The notes: a model not told the origin generated them from the letters alone. DNA of 64,000 nt from Deltaproteobacteria bacterium (GCA_017303575.1 JAFLCL010000001.1:62001-126000), one strand, 5' to 3'; counted from the stretch's first letter, positions 4,528-14,411 are shown. Translations and numbers: made by a program.

Positions 4528-4803
4528 TCAGCAGGGCTCGAGCGCGGGCGGTACGAAGGGACCAGGCACCGCAGGCCAGAGGCACCGACCACCCGCGGCG
4601 TCGTAGTGCGCACCCTGATTGCTGCAGCACGTCTCGGCGGAGCCGTTACGGATCGACCAGCCCGCGCACGTCTGGCCGTCCATGCCGGTGCCATCGAGCA
4701 CGCGCGCGACCACACGGTCACAGCCCGACGAGAGCACGACGCCCGACAGGCCCGCCACCACCATCGCTGCGCGGAGCGCGCGTTCACGCGCGGGAGAGGA
4801 CAT
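4528..4803 (-). CDS. Small Cys-rich lipoprotein with VPGPFVPP signature (family member 1)
   Basis: 91 residues from ATG 4803 (a TTG at 4839 is an alternative). The signal peptide contains RALRAA and a lipobox giving Cys28. The mature part has the pattern C46-x12-C59-C60-x13-C74-x4-VPGPFVPP (79-86), followed by a final Cys91. Two other genes in this window (8868-9203 and 9203-9667) share the ALRAA signal-peptide motif, the same four-cysteine spacing and the identical VPGPFVPP tail, so this is a real gene family. The cysteines could form two disulfides or bind metal. The function is unknown. It is divergent from the ion-channel gene and convergent with the MpaB-type gene. Confidence 0.75.
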   Translation of the reverse strand: MSSPARERALRAAMVVAGLSGVVLSSGCDRVVARVLDGTGMDGQTCAGWSIRNGSAETCCSNQGAHYDAAGGRCLWPAVPGPFVPPALEPC

Positions 4804-4866
4804 CACGGGACTGTCGATCGTGACGCGCGATCGGGTCAACGGCCCCTCGTGCCATCATCGCGCGCG

Positions 4867-6009
4867 ATGACGCCGCGACGCTCTCGCTGGTTCGTGCTGC
4901 TGCCCGCGCTGGCGATGGGGCTCGCGGTGATCGCGACGCGATCCGCCGCGCAGCCGACGCCGATGGGACCGTCCGCGCCAGAGGCGTCCTCGGACACCGC
5001 GGAGACAGCCGCCGTGGCAGAGGCGAGCGCCGAAGCGAGCAGCGGAGACGGCGCCCCCGAAGCGGCAGAGGCAGACGACCGAGAGGCGGAAGACGGCATT
5101 CCGTCGCACGTGACCGTCGGCCTCTACATGCATCACATCCCCGAGCTCGATCTGCCGACCTCGAGCTACCTCGCCGACTTCTATCTCTGGTTCCTCTGGC
5201 GCGGTGAGCCCGACCCCACGGAGAACTGGGAGATCACGAACCTCGTCGAGGGCTGGGATCTCATGGCGGAGCCGCTCTACGTGGACGACGAAGGCGAGCC
5301 CGCGCCCGAGCTCCTGCCCGATGGTCGGCACTACCAGCTCTTCCACGTGCAGGGCCGCTTCGGTCATCCGTTCGACGTGCACGCGTATCCGTTCGACGCG
5401 CAGGACATCGTCATCGAGGTCGAGGACGGCGAGTACCTCACGGACGAGCTGATCTACGAGGTCGATCCCGGCTCGACGCTGCTCCATCCGACGCTCGAGG
5501 TGCCGGGCTGGGATCTCGGCACGCCGACACCGACGGTGATCGAGAGCGTGTACCCCACGAACTTCGGCGACATCCGCAACCCGGAGGGCGGCGATCACTA
5601 CTCGCAGTTCCGCTACGTGCTCCGCGTGCAGCGACCGGTGCTCGGCGCGTTCGTGAAGACGATCGTGCCCATCGCGGTCGTGATGATGATCACGCTCGTG
5701 ATGTTCTTGATCGACCCGAAGTACTTCGAGGGGCGGCTGGGCCTCGGCATCACGAGCTTGATCTCGGCCGTCGCGCTGCAGCTCACGGCCGCGGCCGATC
5801 TGCCTGCGACCGGCTACCTCGTGCTCCTCGATCACGTCTACAACGCGAGCTACGTCGTGATCTTCGTGGCGCTGCTCGAGAGCGTGATCTCGGTGCGCAT
5901 CGCCGATCAGGGCGACGTGGCCCGCGCGCGCCGGCTGGACCTCGGGACGCTCGTGGTGCTGAGCCTCGCCTTCTTCGGCACGGTCGCGGCCCTCGTCGTG
6001 ACGCGCTGA
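4867..6009 (+). CDS. Pentameric ligand-gated ion channel homologue (prokaryotic Cys-loop family)
   Basis: 380 residues from ATG 4867. Residues 1-29 are a signal peptide (ending AAQ), 30-76 an acidic Ala/Glu linker, and about 80-255 an extracellular ligand-binding-type domain. That domain includes the invariant YPFD (174-177) of the Cys-loop, without the cysteines, as in bacterial members such as GLIC and ELIC. Four membrane helices follow at about 262-283 (with the conserved Pro of M1), 291-310 (pore-lining M2), 318-342 and 357-378. It should form a pentameric channel gated by an unknown ligand. The short M3-M4 loop is typical of prokaryotic members. The downstream vWA-protein gene follows after 45 bases in the same direction. 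Confidence 0.88.
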   Translation: MTPRRSRWFVLLPALAMGLAVIATRSAAQPTPMGPSAPEASSDTAETAAVAEASAEASSGDGAPEAAEADDREAEDGIPSHVTVGLYMHHIPELDLPTSSYLADFYLWFLWRGEPDPTENWEITNLVEGWDLMAEPLYVDDEGEPAPELLPDGRHYQLFHVQGRFGHPFDVHAYPFDAQDIVIEVEDGEYLTDELIYEVDPGSTLLHPTLEVPGWDLGTPTPTVIESVYPTNFGDIRNPEGGDHYSQFRYVLRVQRPVLGAFVKTIVPIAVVMMITLVMFLIDPKYFEGRLGLGITSLISAVALQLTAAADLPATGYLVLLDHVYNASYVVIFVALLESVISVRIADQGDVARARRLDLGTLVVLSLAFFGTVAALVVTR

Positions 6010-8016: not shown

Positions 8017-8868
8017 TCAGGCCGCGCGCTTGTCGGCCCAGGCCTTCTTGCCGGGCAGACCGAGCTCCTCGAAGCGCGGCACGATCACGTCTTCGAGCAC
8101 GGCGTAGAGGATCTCGCGACCGTCCTTGCCGTCGATCGCCCCGAGCGCGGCGAGCTCGCTGCGGAGCGCCTCGGAGATCGGCGGAGGCAGCGGCATGGCG
8201 GCGAGCATCTTCTGCTCGATGCTCCCGAGCGCGAGCGGCAGGTAGCGCGCGAGGCCCTCACGCTCTTCCGCGTCGAGCATCGGCAACCAATCTCCGAGCA
8301 AAGACCAGCCCAGCTTCGCGTGCAGGATCTCGTCGGCCGAGAGCTGCTCGACCACGCGGTGGATGCGCGGCTCGGTCGTCACCTCGCGCTCCTCGGCGAG
8401 CAGCGACGTGCTGATCGTCTCGCTCAGACACGACGCGAAGATCACGTTGCGGAGCGCGCGCTCCCGCGGCGTGCGGCCCACGTGCTCGGGCAGCGGCACG
8501 GTCGCGAGATCGCCCTCGATCTCGGGCGTTCCGCCGAGGTAGCGCACGACGTCGAGGCACAGCGACGCGTGGCGGATCTCGTCCATCGCGCTGCGGAGGA
8601 TCACGGTCTTGTACTCGATGCTCGCCTCGGCCTCGATCAGCTGCGGCAAGAGGCGCGAGAACACGCACGAGCTCTGGTGCTCGTGCAGCGCGCGCGCCCG
8701 CCACGCCTCGCGCGCGATCTCGATCGCGCGTGGCGAGGCATCGCCTTCGTAGACCACGCCGTCGGGGATCTCGGGCGCCTCGTCGCCTCGACGCAGCGCC
8801 GTGCGCACCAGGCGCTCGTGCTCGGTGCGGAGAGGCGAGCTGCCGACGCGCAGACGCAGGGTGCCCAT
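8017..8868 (-). CDS. Ferritin-like diiron protein, AurF-type motif pair
   Basis: 283 residues from ATG 8868; an in-frame extension upstream would overlap the preceding gene and is rejected. Two matching metal motifs are visible: E63-x32-D96-E97-x2-H100 and E150-x28-D179-E180-x2-H183. This is the duplicated E-x(28-37)-DExxH arrangement described for AurF-type non-haem diiron N-oxygenases, set in a four-helix ferritin-like fold. The protein is therefore likely an oxygen-activating diiron oxidase or oxygenase, substrate unknown. It has no signal peptide. Its start overlaps the stop of the upstream lipoprotein gene (TGATG), so it is the last gene of a four-gene coupled operon with a molybdopterin oxidoreductase. 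Confidence 0.8.
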   Translation of the reverse strand: MGTLRLRVGSSPLRTEHERLVRTALRRGDEAPEIPDGVVYEGDASPRAIEIAREAWRARALHEHQSSCVFSRLLPQLIEAEASIEYKTVILRSAMDEIRHASLCLDVVRYLGGTPEIEGDLATVPLPEHVGRTPRERALRNVIFASCLSETISTSLLAEEREVTTEPRIHRVVEQLSADEILHAKLGWSLLGDWLPMLDAEEREGLARYLPLALGSIEQKMLAAMPLPPPISEALRSELAALGAIDGKDGREILYAVLEDVIVPRFEELGLPGKKAWADKRAA

Positions 8869-9203
8869 CAGCTCGACTCCTCGATCGGCGGGACGAACGG
8901 CCCCGGCACGCCCACGAAGCACTCCGCGAAGCCGCCGTCGTACACGTACCACTCGCCTCCACCGAGCACGCAGCAGATGCGATCGCGCGGGATGAGGAGG
9001 CGACAGTCGGCATCACCCGGAAAGTGCGCGTCGACGAAGGCGTCGTCGTCGTAGAAGACGAGCGGCGCGTCCATCGTCGCGTCGGGAGCGCTCGTCCCCG
9101 CGTCGCCGTCGGTGCTCGGCGGGCTCGAGCATCCAGTGACGACGAGACCGCACGCGACCTGCGCGGCGCGCAGCGCGATCGAGCGCCCGCGCGAGCCGCG
9201 CAT
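8868..9203 (-). CDS. Small Cys-rich lipoprotein with VPGPFVPP signature (family member 2)
   Basis: 111 residues. The signal peptide contains ALRAA and a lipobox at VVTGC (Cys25); then an Asp-Ala-rich linker (30-65). The mature domain follows C67-x9-C77-C78-x16-C95-x3-VPGPFVPP (99-106). Both ends are coupled: its ATG overlaps the stop of the preceding lipoprotein gene (TGATG at 9201-9205) and its stop overlaps the ATG of the diiron-protein gene (TGATG at 8866-8870). Location is presumably the periplasmic face of a membrane, while the flanking enzymes lack signal peptides. No function is known. Confidence 0.8.
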   Translation of the reverse strand: MRGSRGRSIALRAAQVACGLVVTGCSSPPSTDGDAGTSAPDATMDAPLVFYDDDAFVDAHFPGDADCRLLIPRDRICCVLGGGEWYVYDGGFAECFVGVPGPFVPPIEESS

Positions 9204-9667
9204 CAGCTCACCATGGACGGCGGCACGAACGGACCAGGGACCGCGATCGCGCAGAAGCTCGACTCACCGTCCCAGAAGCCACCCGCGAGCTCGCAGCACG
9301 GCTGGTTCGTGGGTGGGAAGTCGGGGCCGCAGCCGCCATCGCCCGCGAACGTGTAGGCGTCCTCGATGGTGGGCGCGTCTTCGCCCGCGCTGGGCGCGTC
9401 CTCGCCCGTCGAAGGCGCATCGGCGGCGGCGAACGCGTCGAGACCGACGTCGGGGCCTGGTCCGATCTCGAGCGGCACGGGGGCATCGATCGGCGCGTCG
9501 GGCGTCTCCGCGACGAAGGCGTCGGGGCTCGGCGCCGTGAACGCATCGGGGGTGTCGGTCCCGCCGCCGCAGGCAGCGAGGCCGACGATGGAAGCCGAGA
9601 GCGTCGCGGCGCGCGCTGCGCGGAGGGCGCGCGCGCGCCGGAGCGTGAGAGCATCGAAGTCAGTCAT
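9203..9667 (-). CDS. Small Cys-rich lipoprotein with VPGPFVPP signature (family member 3)
   Basis: 154 residues. The N-terminus contains RALRAA and a lipobox (GLAAC, Cys33). A long Asp-Ala-Pro linker (37-108, repeated DAF/DAP units) holds the domain away from the membrane. The C-terminal domain is C113-x10-C124-C125-x13-C139-x3-VPGPFVPP (143-150), homologous to the other two members in this window. Its ATG overlaps the TGA of the molybdopterin oxidoreductase gene (ATGA at 9664-9667), and its stop overlaps the next lipoprotein start. Strict coupling suggests fixed stoichiometry with the flanking redox enzymes. The biochemical role is unknown. Confidence 0.8.
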   Translation of the reverse strand: MTDFDALTLRRARALRAARAATLSASIVGLAACGGGTDTPDAFTAPSPDAFVAETPDAPIDAPVPLEIGPGPDVGLDAFAAADAPSTGEDAPSAGEDAPTIEDAYTFAGDGGCGPDFPPTNQPCCELAGGFWDGESSFCAIAVPGPFVPPSMVS

Positions 9668-11838
9668 GCCATCGAGGATGCGGCAGCGCGCGCGTCGCTG
9701 TCCACCTCGGGGCAGGATCGCAGCGAGAGGATCGGAACGCCGCTGAAGCCCGCGTTGCCGCTCAGTCGATCGAGGAACGTCTCGTCGGTCACGTCGTTCA
9801 CCGACACGCCCGCGTGCTCGCTTGCGACGCTCATGCGCGTGCCTTCACGCGTGTGCCCCCACCCGTGCGGCAGGCTCACCACGCCGCGCATCACCTCGTC
9901 CGAGATCTCGACGGGCACCACGATGCGACCGACGCGCGTGCGCAGCTCGGCCTCGTAGCCGTCGCGGAGCCCGTGCGTCCTCGCGTCGTCGGGGTGCACG
10001 AGCAACGTGCAGCGTCGCGGTCCCTTCACCATCTTGCTGGCGTTGTGGAGCCAGCTGTTGTTGCTCCTCAGGTGTCGGCGGCCGATCAGCACGAGCGATG
10101 GAGCCGCTTCGCTCAGACGCGCCTCGAGCGCGCGTGCCTCACGCACGAAGAGCTCGGGGGCGAGGTCGACCTTGCGATCACGTGTGTAGAGGCGCGAAGG
10201 GAGGCGCGGCTCGAGCGGCCCGAGATCGAAGCCGTGCGGATGATCGCGCAGCACCTTCAAGGAGAGGCGCGGACCGTCGCGGCGCGAGAGACCATACGGA
10301 CCCGCACGAAGCCCTGCGTCCACCACCGCGTCGGGCCCGCGCAAGAGCGCGGCGAGGCTGGCGCGACGAAGGCCGCGCGGCACCACGAGGCCCGCGGTGA
10401 GGTGGGCCATGATCTCCCAGTCGTGCCGCTCGTTCTCCCCGCGTGGGAACACCGGCGGCACGTACTTCGCGGCGTTGCGTACGGAGAACACGTGCAGCGC
10501 GAGATCGTAGTGCGCGCGCTGGAGCGGCGAGACCGGCGGCAAGATCACGTGGGCGTGGCGCGTCGTCTCGTTGAGGAACGCATCGACACACACGACGTGC
10601 TCGAGCGTCGCGAGCGCGCGCTCGAGGCGTGGGCCGTTGGGCGCAGAGAGCGCGGGATTGCCCGCGAACGTGAGCAGCGCGCGAACCTGTCCGGGGCCCG
10701 ACGTCTCGATCTCGTCGGCGAGCGTCGCGACGGGGATCTCACCCATCAGCTCCGGCAGCCCGCGCACACGGCTCCGCCAGCGGTCGTACCCCTTCGACAT
10801 GCCCACGATCCGCAGCACCTCCATCGGGTCGACAGCGGGGGTCGCGAACATGGCCCCGCCGACCTCGTCGAGCCTTCCGCACACCACGTTGAGCGCGACG
10901 AGCAGCCACGACGCGAGCGTGCCGTGCTCTTGTGTGCACGTGCCGATGCGACCGTACGCGACCGAGGTGCGCGCCGCGGAGAACGCACGCGCGAGCCTCG
11001 CGATCGTCTCGGCCGACACGCCCGTGCGCTCCGCGACGCGCGAAGGCGCGAACGCTCGCGACAGCGCCCGCAAGCGCTCGAGCCCCGCGACGTGATCACG
11101 CAGCCGACCCACTCGTTCGAGCCGCTCCTCGAAGATCACGTGGAGCATCGCGAGCACGAGGAACGCGTCGGTGCCCGGCCTCACGAAGACGTGCTCGTCG
11201 GCGACCTCGGCCGTCTCGGTGCGTCGCGGATCGATCACCACGACCTTGCCGCCTCGCTCGCGGATCGCGCGGATGCGCCGCTTCATGTCGGGGGCGTTCA
11301 TGAGCGAGCCGTTGGACACGAGCGGGTTCGCCCCGACGATCAGGAAGTAGTCGGTTCGATCGACGTCGGGGATCGGGACCATGCCGACGTGGCCGAACAT
11401 CTTCTCGGCGGCGAGCATCTGGGGCGCCTGATCGGTGGAGCTCGCCGAGCACACGTTCTTCGTGCCGAGGAGGCGCGTGAGCGGCAGGCCGTGCGTGAGG
11501 AGCCCGAGGTTGTGCGCCGTCGGGTTGCCGTAATACACGGCCATCGCGTCCTTGCCGTGATCGCGACGGATGCGCGCGAAGCCCTCGATCGCGATTCGGA
11601 GCGCCTCGTCCCAGCTCGCCTCACGAAAGCCCGAGCCGTCTCGGATCAGCGGCGTACGAAGTCGATCGGGATCGTGATGGAGCTCGCCCATCGCGTGGGC
11701 CTTGGGGCAGAGGTAGCCACGCGAGGCCGGATCCTCGTCGTCGCCGCGGATCGACACGACACGATCGGCTTCGGTCTCGACGACGATGCCGCACGCTGCT
11801 TCGCACAGCGTGCACGTCGCGATGTGTCGTTCGACCAT
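9664..11838 (-). CDS. Molybdopterin oxidoreductase (formate dehydrogenase/nitrate reductase-like)
   Basis: 724 residues from ATG 11838, which is preceded by a strong GAGGAGGAG ribosome site; a longer in-frame reading is rejected. The N-terminus carries a 4Fe-4S motif C9-x2-C12-x3-C16-x27-C44, followed by the bis-MGD-binding molybdopterin domain and a C-terminal dinucleotide-binding domain. The predicted metal-ligand region reads GTKNVCSASSTDQ, with Cys130 as a candidate Mo ligand. There is no Tat signal, so it is cytoplasmic. It heads an operon with two VPGPFVPP lipoproteins and a diiron ferritin-like protein. The substrate cannot be told from sequence. Confidence 0.85.
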   Translation of the reverse strand: MVERHIATCTLCEAACGIVVETEADRVVSIRGDDEDPASRGYLCPKAHAMGELHHDPDRLRTPLIRDGSGFREASWDEALRIAIEGFARIRRDHGKDAMAVYYGNPTAHNLGLLTHGLPLTRLLGTKNVCSASSTDQAPQMLAAEKMFGHVGMVPIPDVDRTDYFLIVGANPLVSNGSLMNAPDMKRRIRAIRERGGKVVVIDPRRTETAEVADEHVFVRPGTDAFLVLAMLHVIFEERLERVGRLRDHVAGLERLRALSRAFAPSRVAERTGVSAETIARLARAFSAARTSVAYGRIGTCTQEHGTLASWLLVALNVVCGRLDEVGGAMFATPAVDPMEVLRIVGMSKGYDRWRSRVRGLPELMGEIPVATLADEIETSGPGQVRALLTFAGNPALSAPNGPRLERALATLEHVVCVDAFLNETTRHAHVILPPVSPLQRAHYDLALHVFSVRNAAKYVPPVFPRGENERHDWEIMAHLTAGLVVPRGLRRASLAALLRGPDAVVDAGLRAGPYGLSRRDGPRLSLKVLRDHPHGFDLGPLEPRLPSRLYTRDRKVDLAPELFVREARALEARLSEAAPSLVLIGRRHLRSNNSWLHNASKMVKGPRRCTLLVHPDDARTHGLRDGYEAELRTRVGRIVVPVEISDEVMRGVVSLPHGWGHTREGTRMSVASEHAGVSVNDVTDETFLDRLSGNAGFSGVPILSLRSCPEVDSDARAAASSMA

Positions 11839-11925: not shown

Positions 11926-12492
11926 ATGTCGATCGCGATCGCCCGGTCTCTCCGCACCGCCAGCCACGCGGAGCTGCGGCGTCACATCGTCGAAGGTCAC
12001 GCCATCGATCCGAGCGCGATCGAGGGCTACGCCTACCGCGGCACGAGCCTGGGCCTGCCGAGGCTCGTCGAGCTCGCGACGTGGAAGACCTTCCAGAAGA
12101 CCTTCTGGCGGCACCCCGATGGGCGCCTCCTCGGCTGGAACGTGCGCCTCGAGCAAGACGGCATCGACGCGCCGAGCCGTCCCAAGCGCAAGCACGGCGT
12201 GCCCGTGACCGAGTGGCCGTACGGTGTGATCGCGTGCGACGGCGTGCCGATGCCCCGCGGGTTCGATCGTGGGCTCGTCATCGACTATTCGCTCGCGCCG
12301 AACCCGCCGCAGCAGCGGCTCGTGAAAGACCCGCTCGTGGCGCTCAGCGCGGGCGATCACGACGCGCTCCTCGGCGTCAGCTACGTCGTGCTCGGCGGGC
12401 GGTGCCTCGAGACACCGACGTACTTCACCCTCGAGCGCGATCACCGGATCGATCACGTGCCCGACGTGGTGAAGGCCGAGGTGGGCCGGTGA
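11926..12492 (+). CDS. Conserved hypothetical protein, partner of GMC oxidoreductase
   Basis: 188 residues from ATG 11926. Soluble, no signal peptide or membrane segment. Notable are aromatic and basic stretches such as ATWKTFQKTFWRHP and GWNVRLEQ in the first half and LGGRCLETPTYFTLERDH near the end. I do not recognise a family with a known function. Its TGA overlaps the GTG of the GMC oxidoreductase gene (GTGA at 12489-12492), so the two are made together. By context it may help the flavoenzyme with its substrate or act in the same lipid-alcohol pathway; this is inference. Confidence 0.7.
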   Translation: MSIAIARSLRTASHAELRRHIVEGHAIDPSAIEGYAYRGTSLGLPRLVELATWKTFQKTFWRHPDGRLLGWNVRLEQDGIDAPSRPKRKHGVPVTEWPYGVIACDGVPMPRGFDRGLVIDYSLAPNPPQQRLVKDPLVALSAGDHDALLGVSYVVLGGRCLETPTYFTLERDHRIDHVPDVVKAEVGR

Positions 12493-14411
12493 GCGCGCTA
12501 CCTCCGCGCGAGCGCCGGTGGGCGGAGGCGCTCTTCGACGCGATCCTCGGGCCCGTCGAACGACACGGCCTTCCTTCGTTCGCGTCGATCGATCACGCAG
12601 GCTTCTACCGCGCGATCGATCACGCGCCAGGTCCTCCGTTCGCACCGGGCCTGCGCGGCATGGTGACGGCCGCGACGCTCGCGACGCTGCCGACGCACGG
12701 GCGGCCGTTCCACGCCCTCGATCGCGACGCGCGGGTGCGCGCGATCGACACCATGAGCGCGGACCCTCGCTATCTCGTGCGGCAGATCCTCTCGACGCTG
12801 AAGATCCTCGCGACCTTCGCCTACTTCGAGGATCCGGAGGTGCGTCGACGCGTGGGCGCAGACGTCGATGCTCCGCACCCCGACCCACGCGACGACGCGC
12901 ACGAGGCCGCGAGCGCGCTGGTCCACCTCGACGGGCGCACGCTCGATCGTCCGCGCTCGTTCGACTGCGACGTGGTGATCGTGGGCAGCGGTCCCGCTGG
13001 AGCGACCGTCGCCCGATCCCTCGCGAGGCGAGGCCTCGACGTGATCGTGCTCGAGGAGGGCCACGAGGCGAGACCGTCGAGCTTCGTCGCCTCGGGCCTG
13101 CAGTCGATGGCGCGTCTCTACCGCGAGATGGGCACCTCGATGGCGCTCGGCACGAGCCCGATGCCGTTCCTCCAGGGCGTGGCCGTGGGCGGAACGAGCG
13201 TGGTGAACGGCGCGATCAGCTGGCGCTTCAGCGAAGAGACGCTCGCGCGCTGGATCGCGTCGGACCCGAGCCTCGCGCCCGTGCTCGAGCTCGGCCGAAT
13301 CCGCACACACGAGGAGGCGCTCTTCACGCGTCTCGGTGTCACGCCCACCGACGATGCGATCGCGGGGCCCAAGAACCTCCTGCTCGCGAAGGGCGCGAAG
13401 GCGCTCTCGATCGCGAGCCGTCCGATCGAGCGCAACGTCGAGGGATGTCGCGGCAGCGGGCGATGTCTCCAGGGCTGTCCGCACGGCGCCAAGCTCTCGG
13501 TCGATCGCAACCTCCTCGTCGATGCGAAGGACGACGGCGCACGCATCCTCGCGGGCATGCGCGTCGATCGCGTGCTCCACGACGGCGCGCGCGCGATCGG
13601 CGTCGCAGGCACGAGCGCCGGAGGAGCGCGCTTCGACGTGATCGCGAAGAAGGTCGTGCTCGCCGCGAGCGCGATCGGCACGCCGACGCTGCTGATGAAG
13701 AGCGGCATCACGCACGGCCCGGTCGGTCGACACCTCACGGCGCATCCGGGCGTGTCGGTCACTGCGCGCTTTGGCGAGCGCGTCTCGAACCACCGCGGCG
13801 CCACGCAAGGCCACGAGGTGACCGGCCTCCGCGGTGAGGGCCTCAAGGTCGAGGCGCTCGGTTTCGATGTCTCGATCCTCGCGAGCCGCGTCCCCGGCTA
13901 CGGCACCGAGCTCGCGGAGAGACTCGCCTCGCTCGATCGTTTCGCCGTGTGGGGCACGGCGCTGCGCGCCGAAGGCGAAGGGAGCGTGCGCCTACTCGGC
14001 GATCGCGCACAGGTGCTCTATTCGCTCGCGCCGGGCGACGTGAAGAAGGCGCGCGCTGCCGTGCGACGGATGGGCGAGCTCTTCCTCGCGGCGGGCGCCG
14101 AGGAGGTGTATCCCGGAGTGCCCGGCTTCCACGCGATCGTGCGCGACCCGAAGTCGATGGCGCGCTTCGAGCAGGAAGGTCCGCTCTCACCACGCGCGTA
14201 CGCGATGTCGATGACGCACCTCTTCGGCACGACGCGCCTGGGCAGCGACCCGGCGCGATCCGTGGTCGGTCTCGACTTCCAGCACCACGCGCTGCGCGGT
14301 CTCTTCGTCGCCGACTCGAGCGTGTTCCCCGGCAACCTCGGCGTGAACCCACAGCTGCCGATCATGACGCTCGCGTCGATCGCCGCGGAGTCGATCGCGT
14401 CGGCACCCTGA
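12489..14411 (+). CDS. GMC-family FAD oxidoreductase with N-terminal helical domain
   Basis: 640 residues from a GTG start. Residues 1-150 form a helical domain resembling gluconate 2-dehydrogenase subunit 3. The FAD-binding GMC domain starts near 158 with VIVGSGPAGATVARSLARRG (GxGxxG at 166-171) and the ribose-binding Glu shortly after. GVAVGGTSVVNG (230-241) is the second typical flavin motif. A cysteine cluster C320-x5-C326-x3-C330 followed by HGAK matches long-chain fatty-alcohol-oxidase-type members. The C-terminus (VNPQLPIMTLASIAAE) is the GMC C-terminal signature. It probably oxidises a hydrophobic alcohol or sterol. It is coupled to the upstream unknown gene. Confidence 0.87.
   Translation: MSALPPRERRWAEALFDAILGPVERHGLPSFASIDHAGFYRAIDHAPGPPFAPGLRGMVTAATLATLPTHGRPFHALDRDARVRAIDTMSADPRYLVRQILSTLKILATFAYFEDPEVRRRVGADVDAPHPDPRDDAHEAASALVHLDGRTLDRPRSFDCDVVIVGSGPAGATVARSLARRGLDVIVLEEGHEARPSSFVASGLQSMARLYREMGTSMALGTSPMPFLQGVAVGGTSVVNGAISWRFSEETLARWIASDPSLAPVLELGRIRTHEEALFTRLGVTPTDDAIAGPKNLLLAKGAKALSIASRPIERNVEGCRGSGRCLQGCPHGAKLSVDRNLLVDAKDDGARILAGMRVDRVLHDGARAIGVAGTSAGGARFDVIAKKVVLAASAIGTPTLLMKSGITHGPVGRHLTAHPGVSVTARFGERVSNHRGATQGHEVTGLRGEGLKVEALGFDVSILASRVPGYGTELAERLASLDRFAVWGTALRAEGEGSVRLLGDRAQVLYSLAPGDVKKARAAVRRMGELFLAAGAEEVYPGVPGFHAIVRDPKSMARFEQEGPLSPRAYAMSMTHLFGTTRLGSDPARSVVGLDFQHHALRGLFVADSSVFPGNLGVNPQLPIMTLASIAAESIASAP

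Follow-up and report, generated by a model that had tools for sequence, protein, structure and literature searches.

A conserved gene pair of a predicted ferritin-like diiron protein and C-terminally tagged lipoproteins in Myxococcota

In Myxococcota, a gene for a predicted ferritin-like diiron protein and one or more genes for small lipoproteins with a common Pro-rich C-terminal tag form a conserved, hitherto undescribed two-gene unit. The unit is found in the window, i.e. the whole stretch of 64,000 nucleotides of deltaproteobacterial DNA analysed here, where four minus-strand ORFs follow one another with overlapping junctions (Table 1), and ATGA at 9667-9664, TGATG at 9205-9201 and TGATG at 8870-8866 are all present in the sequence. 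The original prediction took the four genes as one set; the overlaps are real, but what is conserved elsewhere is the diiron gene together with the small lipoprotein genes, without the molybdopterin oxidoreductase (Mo) gene. Its view that the lipoproteins represent an apparently new family holds. Neither lipoprotein A nor lipoprotein B reaches the cut-off of any Pfam or NCBIfam family, and a literature search gave no paper on them.

Table 1. Features of the conserved unit and its surroundings in the window.
Feature	Position	Strand	Description
Molybdopterin oxidoreductase, 724 aa	9664..11838	-	Pfam PF00384, PF01568, PF04879
Lipoprotein A, 154 aa	9203..9667	-	RRARALRAA n-region, lipobox-like Cys33, Asp/Ala-rich linker, C..CC..W..C domain, VPGPFVPP tail
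Lipoprotein A tag VPGPFVPP	9218..9241	-	stop codon 4 residues further on
Lipoprotein B, 111 aa	8868..9203	-	ALRAA n-region, lipobox-like Cys, C..CC..C domain, VPGPFVPP tail
Lipoprotein B tag VPGPFVPP	8886..8909	-	stop codon 5 residues further on
Ferritin-like diiron protein (predicted), 283 aa	8017..8868	-	core of conserved pair; predicted iron ligands E63, E97, H100, E150, E180, H183
Third tagged lipoprotein	about 4528..4803	-	start at MSSPARERALRAA Met chosen by us; no adjoining diiron gene
Third lipoprotein tag VPGPFVPP	4546..4569	-	GPFVPP DNA pattern

Three copies of the GPFVPP DNA pattern are present in the window, as compared to zero expected from 100 shuffles, and the third, which was absent from the original prediction, ends another tagged lipoprotein. 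The gene of this third lipoprotein is divergent from a plus-strand frame (4606-6009) that by eye looks like a pentameric ligand-gated ion channel, and this order is kept in a locus of the same genus (L066). Upstream of the Mo gene, the opposite (plus) strand encodes a GMC-type oxidoreductase at 12081-14411, with weak cholesterol oxidase/MftG-like matches far below the cut-offs.

When about 85,000 species genomes were scanned for VPGPFVPP, 76 stretches were obtained. In those of the lipoprotein type, the motif closes a short ORF in which a C..CC..C domain is preceded by an ALRAA-like n-region and a lipobox-like Cys; the source records are named Myxococcota, Myxococcales, Sandaracinaceae, Polyangiaceae, Bradymonadaceae or Deltaproteobacteria, or are unclassified MAGs. 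The main recurring gene at these loci is a homologue of the diiron gene of the window, often right behind the lipoprotein gene, an order also seen in L014; the Mo gene is present solely in L065. A diiron profile detected homologues in 167 of 379 Myxococcota genomes, and a profile of the VPGPFVPP domain matched 19 of the 379, 16 of them with E<1e-6; all 16 possess a close diiron homologue. Moreover, the sequences on either side of the 95 best diiron loci revealed that distant diiron genes, too, adjoin a gene for a Cys-rich exported protein with a related tail. With a fixed tail pattern, a tagged ORF was found at 58 of the 70 loci whose diiron score reached 165 bits or more, as compared to 0 of the 29 below, shuffled tails matching at a rate of 5e-4 per ORF, and a stricter filter that drops Arg-rich tails gave 55/72 high-scoring versus 1/26 low-scoring diiron loci (Fisher p 4e-11). 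As this tail pattern had been fixed after part of the data had been seen, the search was repeated from the tag side. The tag-domain profile alone, which was built from diiron-near tagged proteins and the VPGPFVPP scan and is thus independent in method but not in starting material, matched 57 of 360 genomes, and most matches with E<=1e-6 are no more than a few hundred bases away from a diiron gene, the two sets of coordinates having been compared by reading two tables rather than by script. Matches away from a diiron gene are mostly extra VPGPFVPP lipoproteins, with the enzyme encoded elsewhere in the same genome.

Most tagged genes are located upstream of the diiron gene, their ends ranging from an overlap of 1 base with the diiron match to a gap of a few hundred bases in front of it, and the others lie downstream of it, opposite to it or unlinked from it. 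One enzyme is often accompanied by several tagged proteins, some of which are encoded elsewhere in the genome. Some loci negative for the pattern carry tail variants (WGPYxPP in L161-163, WGPPAPL in L173), and a recognisable tag is missing at a few loci of the clade (L168, L182, L195-L198). L112 is cut by a contig end and the tagged gene of L100 is on another contig; since many of the genomes are fragmented MAGs, a missing neighbour may reflect a gap in the assembly. Among the diiron loci no other enzyme or transporter recurs, except for a LysR-type regulator at 12 loci (L110, L111, L119, L161, L162, L169, L170, L180, L185, L189, L190, L195). The 42 genomes reached via loci of other phyla, a set that has no positive control, gave no match.

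The genome of the window contains five exact PGPFVP matches and, beside the copy on contig C201, a further, more divergent family member, also a lipoprotein. In this genome six lipoproteins with GPFVPP-type tails stand against one enzyme of that clade. Two lipoproteins with GPFVPP tails are encoded at C201:12453-13129 (L006, L144), with no diiron gene found nearby. A second pair, on C468 (L155), consists of a diiron gene and two tandem lipoprotein genes whose products end with VGPLSPPDLAV and IGPLYPPDLVV, and is a second tag dialect (GPL type) within one genome. On C54 (L159) a distant diiron homologue is located just behind a lipoprotein with a CCVLGPAEESAP end, perhaps a decayed tail or another kind of tail. 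Finally, VPGPFVPPSMDD stands at the end of a larger protein (C239:5519-6496, L007) that has a hydrophobic region and, at its N-terminus, a CxxC pair resembling a zinc ribbon. As its homologue from the same genus (37% identical) lacks the VPGPFVPPSMDD tail, this end probably arose by chance or maybe is a recent gain, and we do not use it as evidence for a portable tag on unrelated proteins.

The tagged lipoproteins share a common architecture. At the start of 62 of the 74 tag ORFs there is a charged n-region followed by a hydrophobic stretch and a Cys, according to our own rule, ORF calls and lipobox rules both being heuristic. The n-region motif R/K/H..A[LIV]x[AIS] is present in 49 of these 62 as compared to 1 of 7 control lipoproteins, a very small control set. 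A linker rich in Asp, Ala, Ser and Thr leads to a Cys-rich domain at whose end stands the tail pattern C-x(1-7)-GP[F/L/P/Y]xPP; in the family alignment this C-terminal domain reads CC..W..C, followed by GPxxPP. A model of the last 48 residues of lipoprotein A (pLDDT 75, i.e. modest) places the CC pair on a helix and the Trp and the third Cys on a hairpin, from which an extended tail emerges. The tails stop 3-20 residues past GPxxPP without a hydrophobic helix, and neither a transmembrane helix nor a basic end comes after the tag. Tat export, as the RR motif of some n-regions might imply, was dismissed as a general feature, several bradymonad sequences having KK and GPL-type sequences having no RR.

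The diiron protein scores below every Pfam and NCBIfam cut-off, with weak matches to AurF and rubrerythrin alone; for AurF (PF11583) it reaches 20.0 bits (E 4e-4), short of the curated cut-off of 29.6. Sequence profiles against the PDB likewise gave weak ferritin-like matches. The AlphaFold2 model (pLDDT 96.9) has an all-helical core, and its best fold matches in the PDB are cyanobacterial aldehyde-deformylating oxygenases, followed by PaaA/PaaC, the azoxy synthase VlmB, RNR R2, AurF and CmlI, the top match being 4tw3 (E 3e-4, ~17% identity, TM-score about 0.5-0.6). All 69 aligned sequences share W56, E63, S66, E97, H100, E150, E180, H183 and G187. Six of these residues (Table 1) are the predicted diiron ligands and correspond to the E, ExxH, E, ExxH set of carboxylate-bridged diiron oxygenases; their invariance implies catalysis. 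By its modelled fold and its predicted ligands the protein belongs to the ferritin-like diiron superfamily, but not to AurF, for which its score is too low. As judged by eye it has no signal peptide, and it is predicted to be cytoplasmic, soluble and oxygenase-like; members of the superfamily bind iron and activate O2, as this protein may do.

Aldehyde-deformylating oxygenases have the ligand order E, ExxH, E, ExxH. The cyanobacterial enzyme, the nearest solved fold, thus shares this kind of order with the diiron protein, but the low identity, the different partner genes and the lack of any sign of an aldehyde substrate set the two apart. The N-oxygenases AurF and CmlI are likewise diiron helical bundles, AurF giving the sub-threshold Pfam match; however, they match the fold less well than aldehyde-deformylating oxygenase, and the genomic context here is tagged lipoproteins rather than an antibiotic cluster.

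Beside distant diiron genes the tags are IGPLxPP[DE]L, EGPLTPP, AWGPF[VN]PP and, most commonly, WGPPxPP, and tag type (VPGPFVPP, IGPLxPP, WGPPxPP) tracks the enzyme tree. In a 97-row maximum-likelihood tree the tag-associated enzymes are placed on one branch of 73 rows (SH-aLRT 95), and among the tagged rows the GPF, WGPF, GPL and GPP types require 4 changes, the minimum being 3. All labels taken together require 12 changes as compared to a shuffled mean of 48.9, the tag types of L096, L115, L116 and L124 having been assigned by hand after inspection. Since shuffling ignores relatedness, this comparison shows that the dialect follows the lineage rather than how many independent changes occurred, and the numbers for co-evolution look stronger than independent events would, the sequences being related. 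As tail type changes with enzyme lineage, the sequences suggest that the diiron enzyme recognises the tail and probably modifies it.

A strict diiron site, a lineage-linked tail and one enzyme for several tailed proteins together indicate a pair of enzyme and C-terminal tag. We therefore propose, as the likeliest of the explanations considered although we regard its chances as evenly balanced, that a diiron oxygenase in the cytoplasm acts on lipoproteins that await export and modifies their tails. The enzyme would recognise newly made lipoproteins by the n-region R/K..ALxAA in front of the lipobox and by the small Cys domain ending with C-x(1-7)-GP[F/L/P/Y]xPP, and would oxidatively alter the tail or adjoining residues, with export and lipidation coming afterwards. 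Several tagged lipoproteins, encoded beside the enzyme gene or elsewhere, might be served by one enzyme. As the enzyme lacks a signal peptide and the tagged proteins have one, the two could meet solely before export. What the sequences show is the gene pairing, the joint change of tag type and enzyme clade, the predicted set of diiron ligands and the lipoprotein architecture; the lipoprotein as substrate, oxidation as the reaction and its timing are what we infer. The n-region faces the cytoplasm and its motif may thus be a second recognition point, although it might function in export alone. In a wider and more tentative version, which we consider possible but rather doubtful, a phylum-wide maturation class would exist, i.e. 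a family of diiron oxygenases, each with its own dialect (VPGPFVPP, IGPLxPP, WGPYxPP or WGPPxPP), by which lipoprotein tails are oxidised, or trimmed by oxidation, ahead of export.

The enzyme might instead be a partner that leaves the lipoprotein unmodified, both acting in a shared pathway, e.g. in lipid or metal handling, with the tail contributing to structure or docking once the lipoprotein is mature. The nearest folds (aldehyde-deformylating oxygenase, PaaA/PaaC, VlmB, AurF) all use small molecules, and the tail, which comes right after a predicted disulfide-type hairpin, may belong to that small domain. However, enzyme and lipoprotein are predicted to reside in different compartments, the tail and the enzyme clade change jointly, and no further enzyme or transporter recurs at the loci, but solely the LysR-type regulator, so that we hold this explanation to be unlikely, albeit a serious one.

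Enzyme/C-terminal-tag systems include PEP-CTERM/exosortase and GlyGly-CTERM/rhombosortase. C-terminal sorting tags are also common in Myxococcota, where MYXO-CTERM/myxosortase combines a short C-terminal signature on exported proteins with a dedicated enzyme (PMC11980579). The unit described here resembles this system in that a C-terminal signature co-occurs with an enzyme in the same phylum, and, as would be expected of an enzyme/C-terminal-tag pair, tag type follows enzyme lineage. The tail might thus send the lipoprotein to the cell surface or outer membrane, with the diiron protein taking part in this route without oxidising the tail. Yet the MYXO-CTERM tag comprises a signature Cys motif, a transmembrane helix and a basic end, of which the helix and the basic end are absent here, and the partner in sortase-like systems is an intramembrane or membrane protease, whereas here it is a predicted soluble ferritin-like protein with a strictly kept diiron site, all of which makes a mere sorting tag improbable.

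If the proposed tail modification holds, a further parallel would be MNIO (DUF692) systems, in which the gene of an oxidative, iron-dependent enzyme adjoins those of small Cys-rich proteins made by the ribosome. Fold and family differ, however, the enzyme here being a ferritin-like helical bundle, and it is paired with lipoproteins that have a lipobox-like Cys and end in a Pro-rich tail. No DUF692 enzyme was matched by Pfam or NCBIfam among the genes of the window.

A Pro-rich C-terminus on an exported protein whose gene precedes another one is also reminiscent of RAPP-type arrest peptides that monitor export, RAPP/RGPP-like C-terminal motifs being known in exported proteins upstream of regulated genes (PMC12992588, PMC10951233). 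The tail could then stall the ribosome and tune the downstream diiron gene according to lipoprotein export, in line with the majority of tagged genes being upstream. But a tagged gene that is downstream of, opposite to or unlinked from the diiron gene cannot control it in cis, the Arg of RAPP/RGPP is missing from the tail, and the stop/start overlap in the window leaves no space for a separate regulated leader; we consider this explanation very improbable. A defence system was also discarded, as PADLOC gave no match.

Hardly tenable, finally, is the reading of the original prediction, in which the Mo enzyme, the diiron enzyme and the two lipoproteins make up a redox system that uses two metal centres. 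The overlapping junctions tie the four genes together here, and the ATGA overlap between the Mo gene and the lipoprotein A gene is kept in the same-genus locus L065, but the Mo gene adjoins the others only in these two genomes. Its orthologues in four other genomes of the family, all from other genera (G001, G004, G005, G006; 53-56% identical), lie at loci without tag or diiron gene, and BLAST did not find it at any other diiron locus compared, so that it was rejected as a member of the conserved unit. The modelled Cys domain, made up of helix, hairpin and tail, suggests no redox centre in the lipoproteins either, and as a general system the redox reading is largely refuted. The linkage was to count as accidental if lipoprotein homologues were never found beside these enzymes in other genomes; the link to the diiron gene is conserved across the phylum, that to the Mo gene is not.

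A literature search found neither the tail motifs nor the pairing of a ferritin-like protein with lipoproteins. Whatever its chemistry, the unit is an undescribed two-gene family that is present in dozens of genomes and unnamed in the protein-family libraries searched. Should the enzyme act on the tail, it would be, to our knowledge, the first ferritin-like diiron enzyme devoted to a C-terminal protein tag and would reveal a new route of envelope-protein maturation in Myxococcota, a phylum in which predation and multicellular behaviour abound. If, moreover, the tails are oxidised or trimmed throughout the phylum, this would amount to a new peptide chemistry on the cell envelope.
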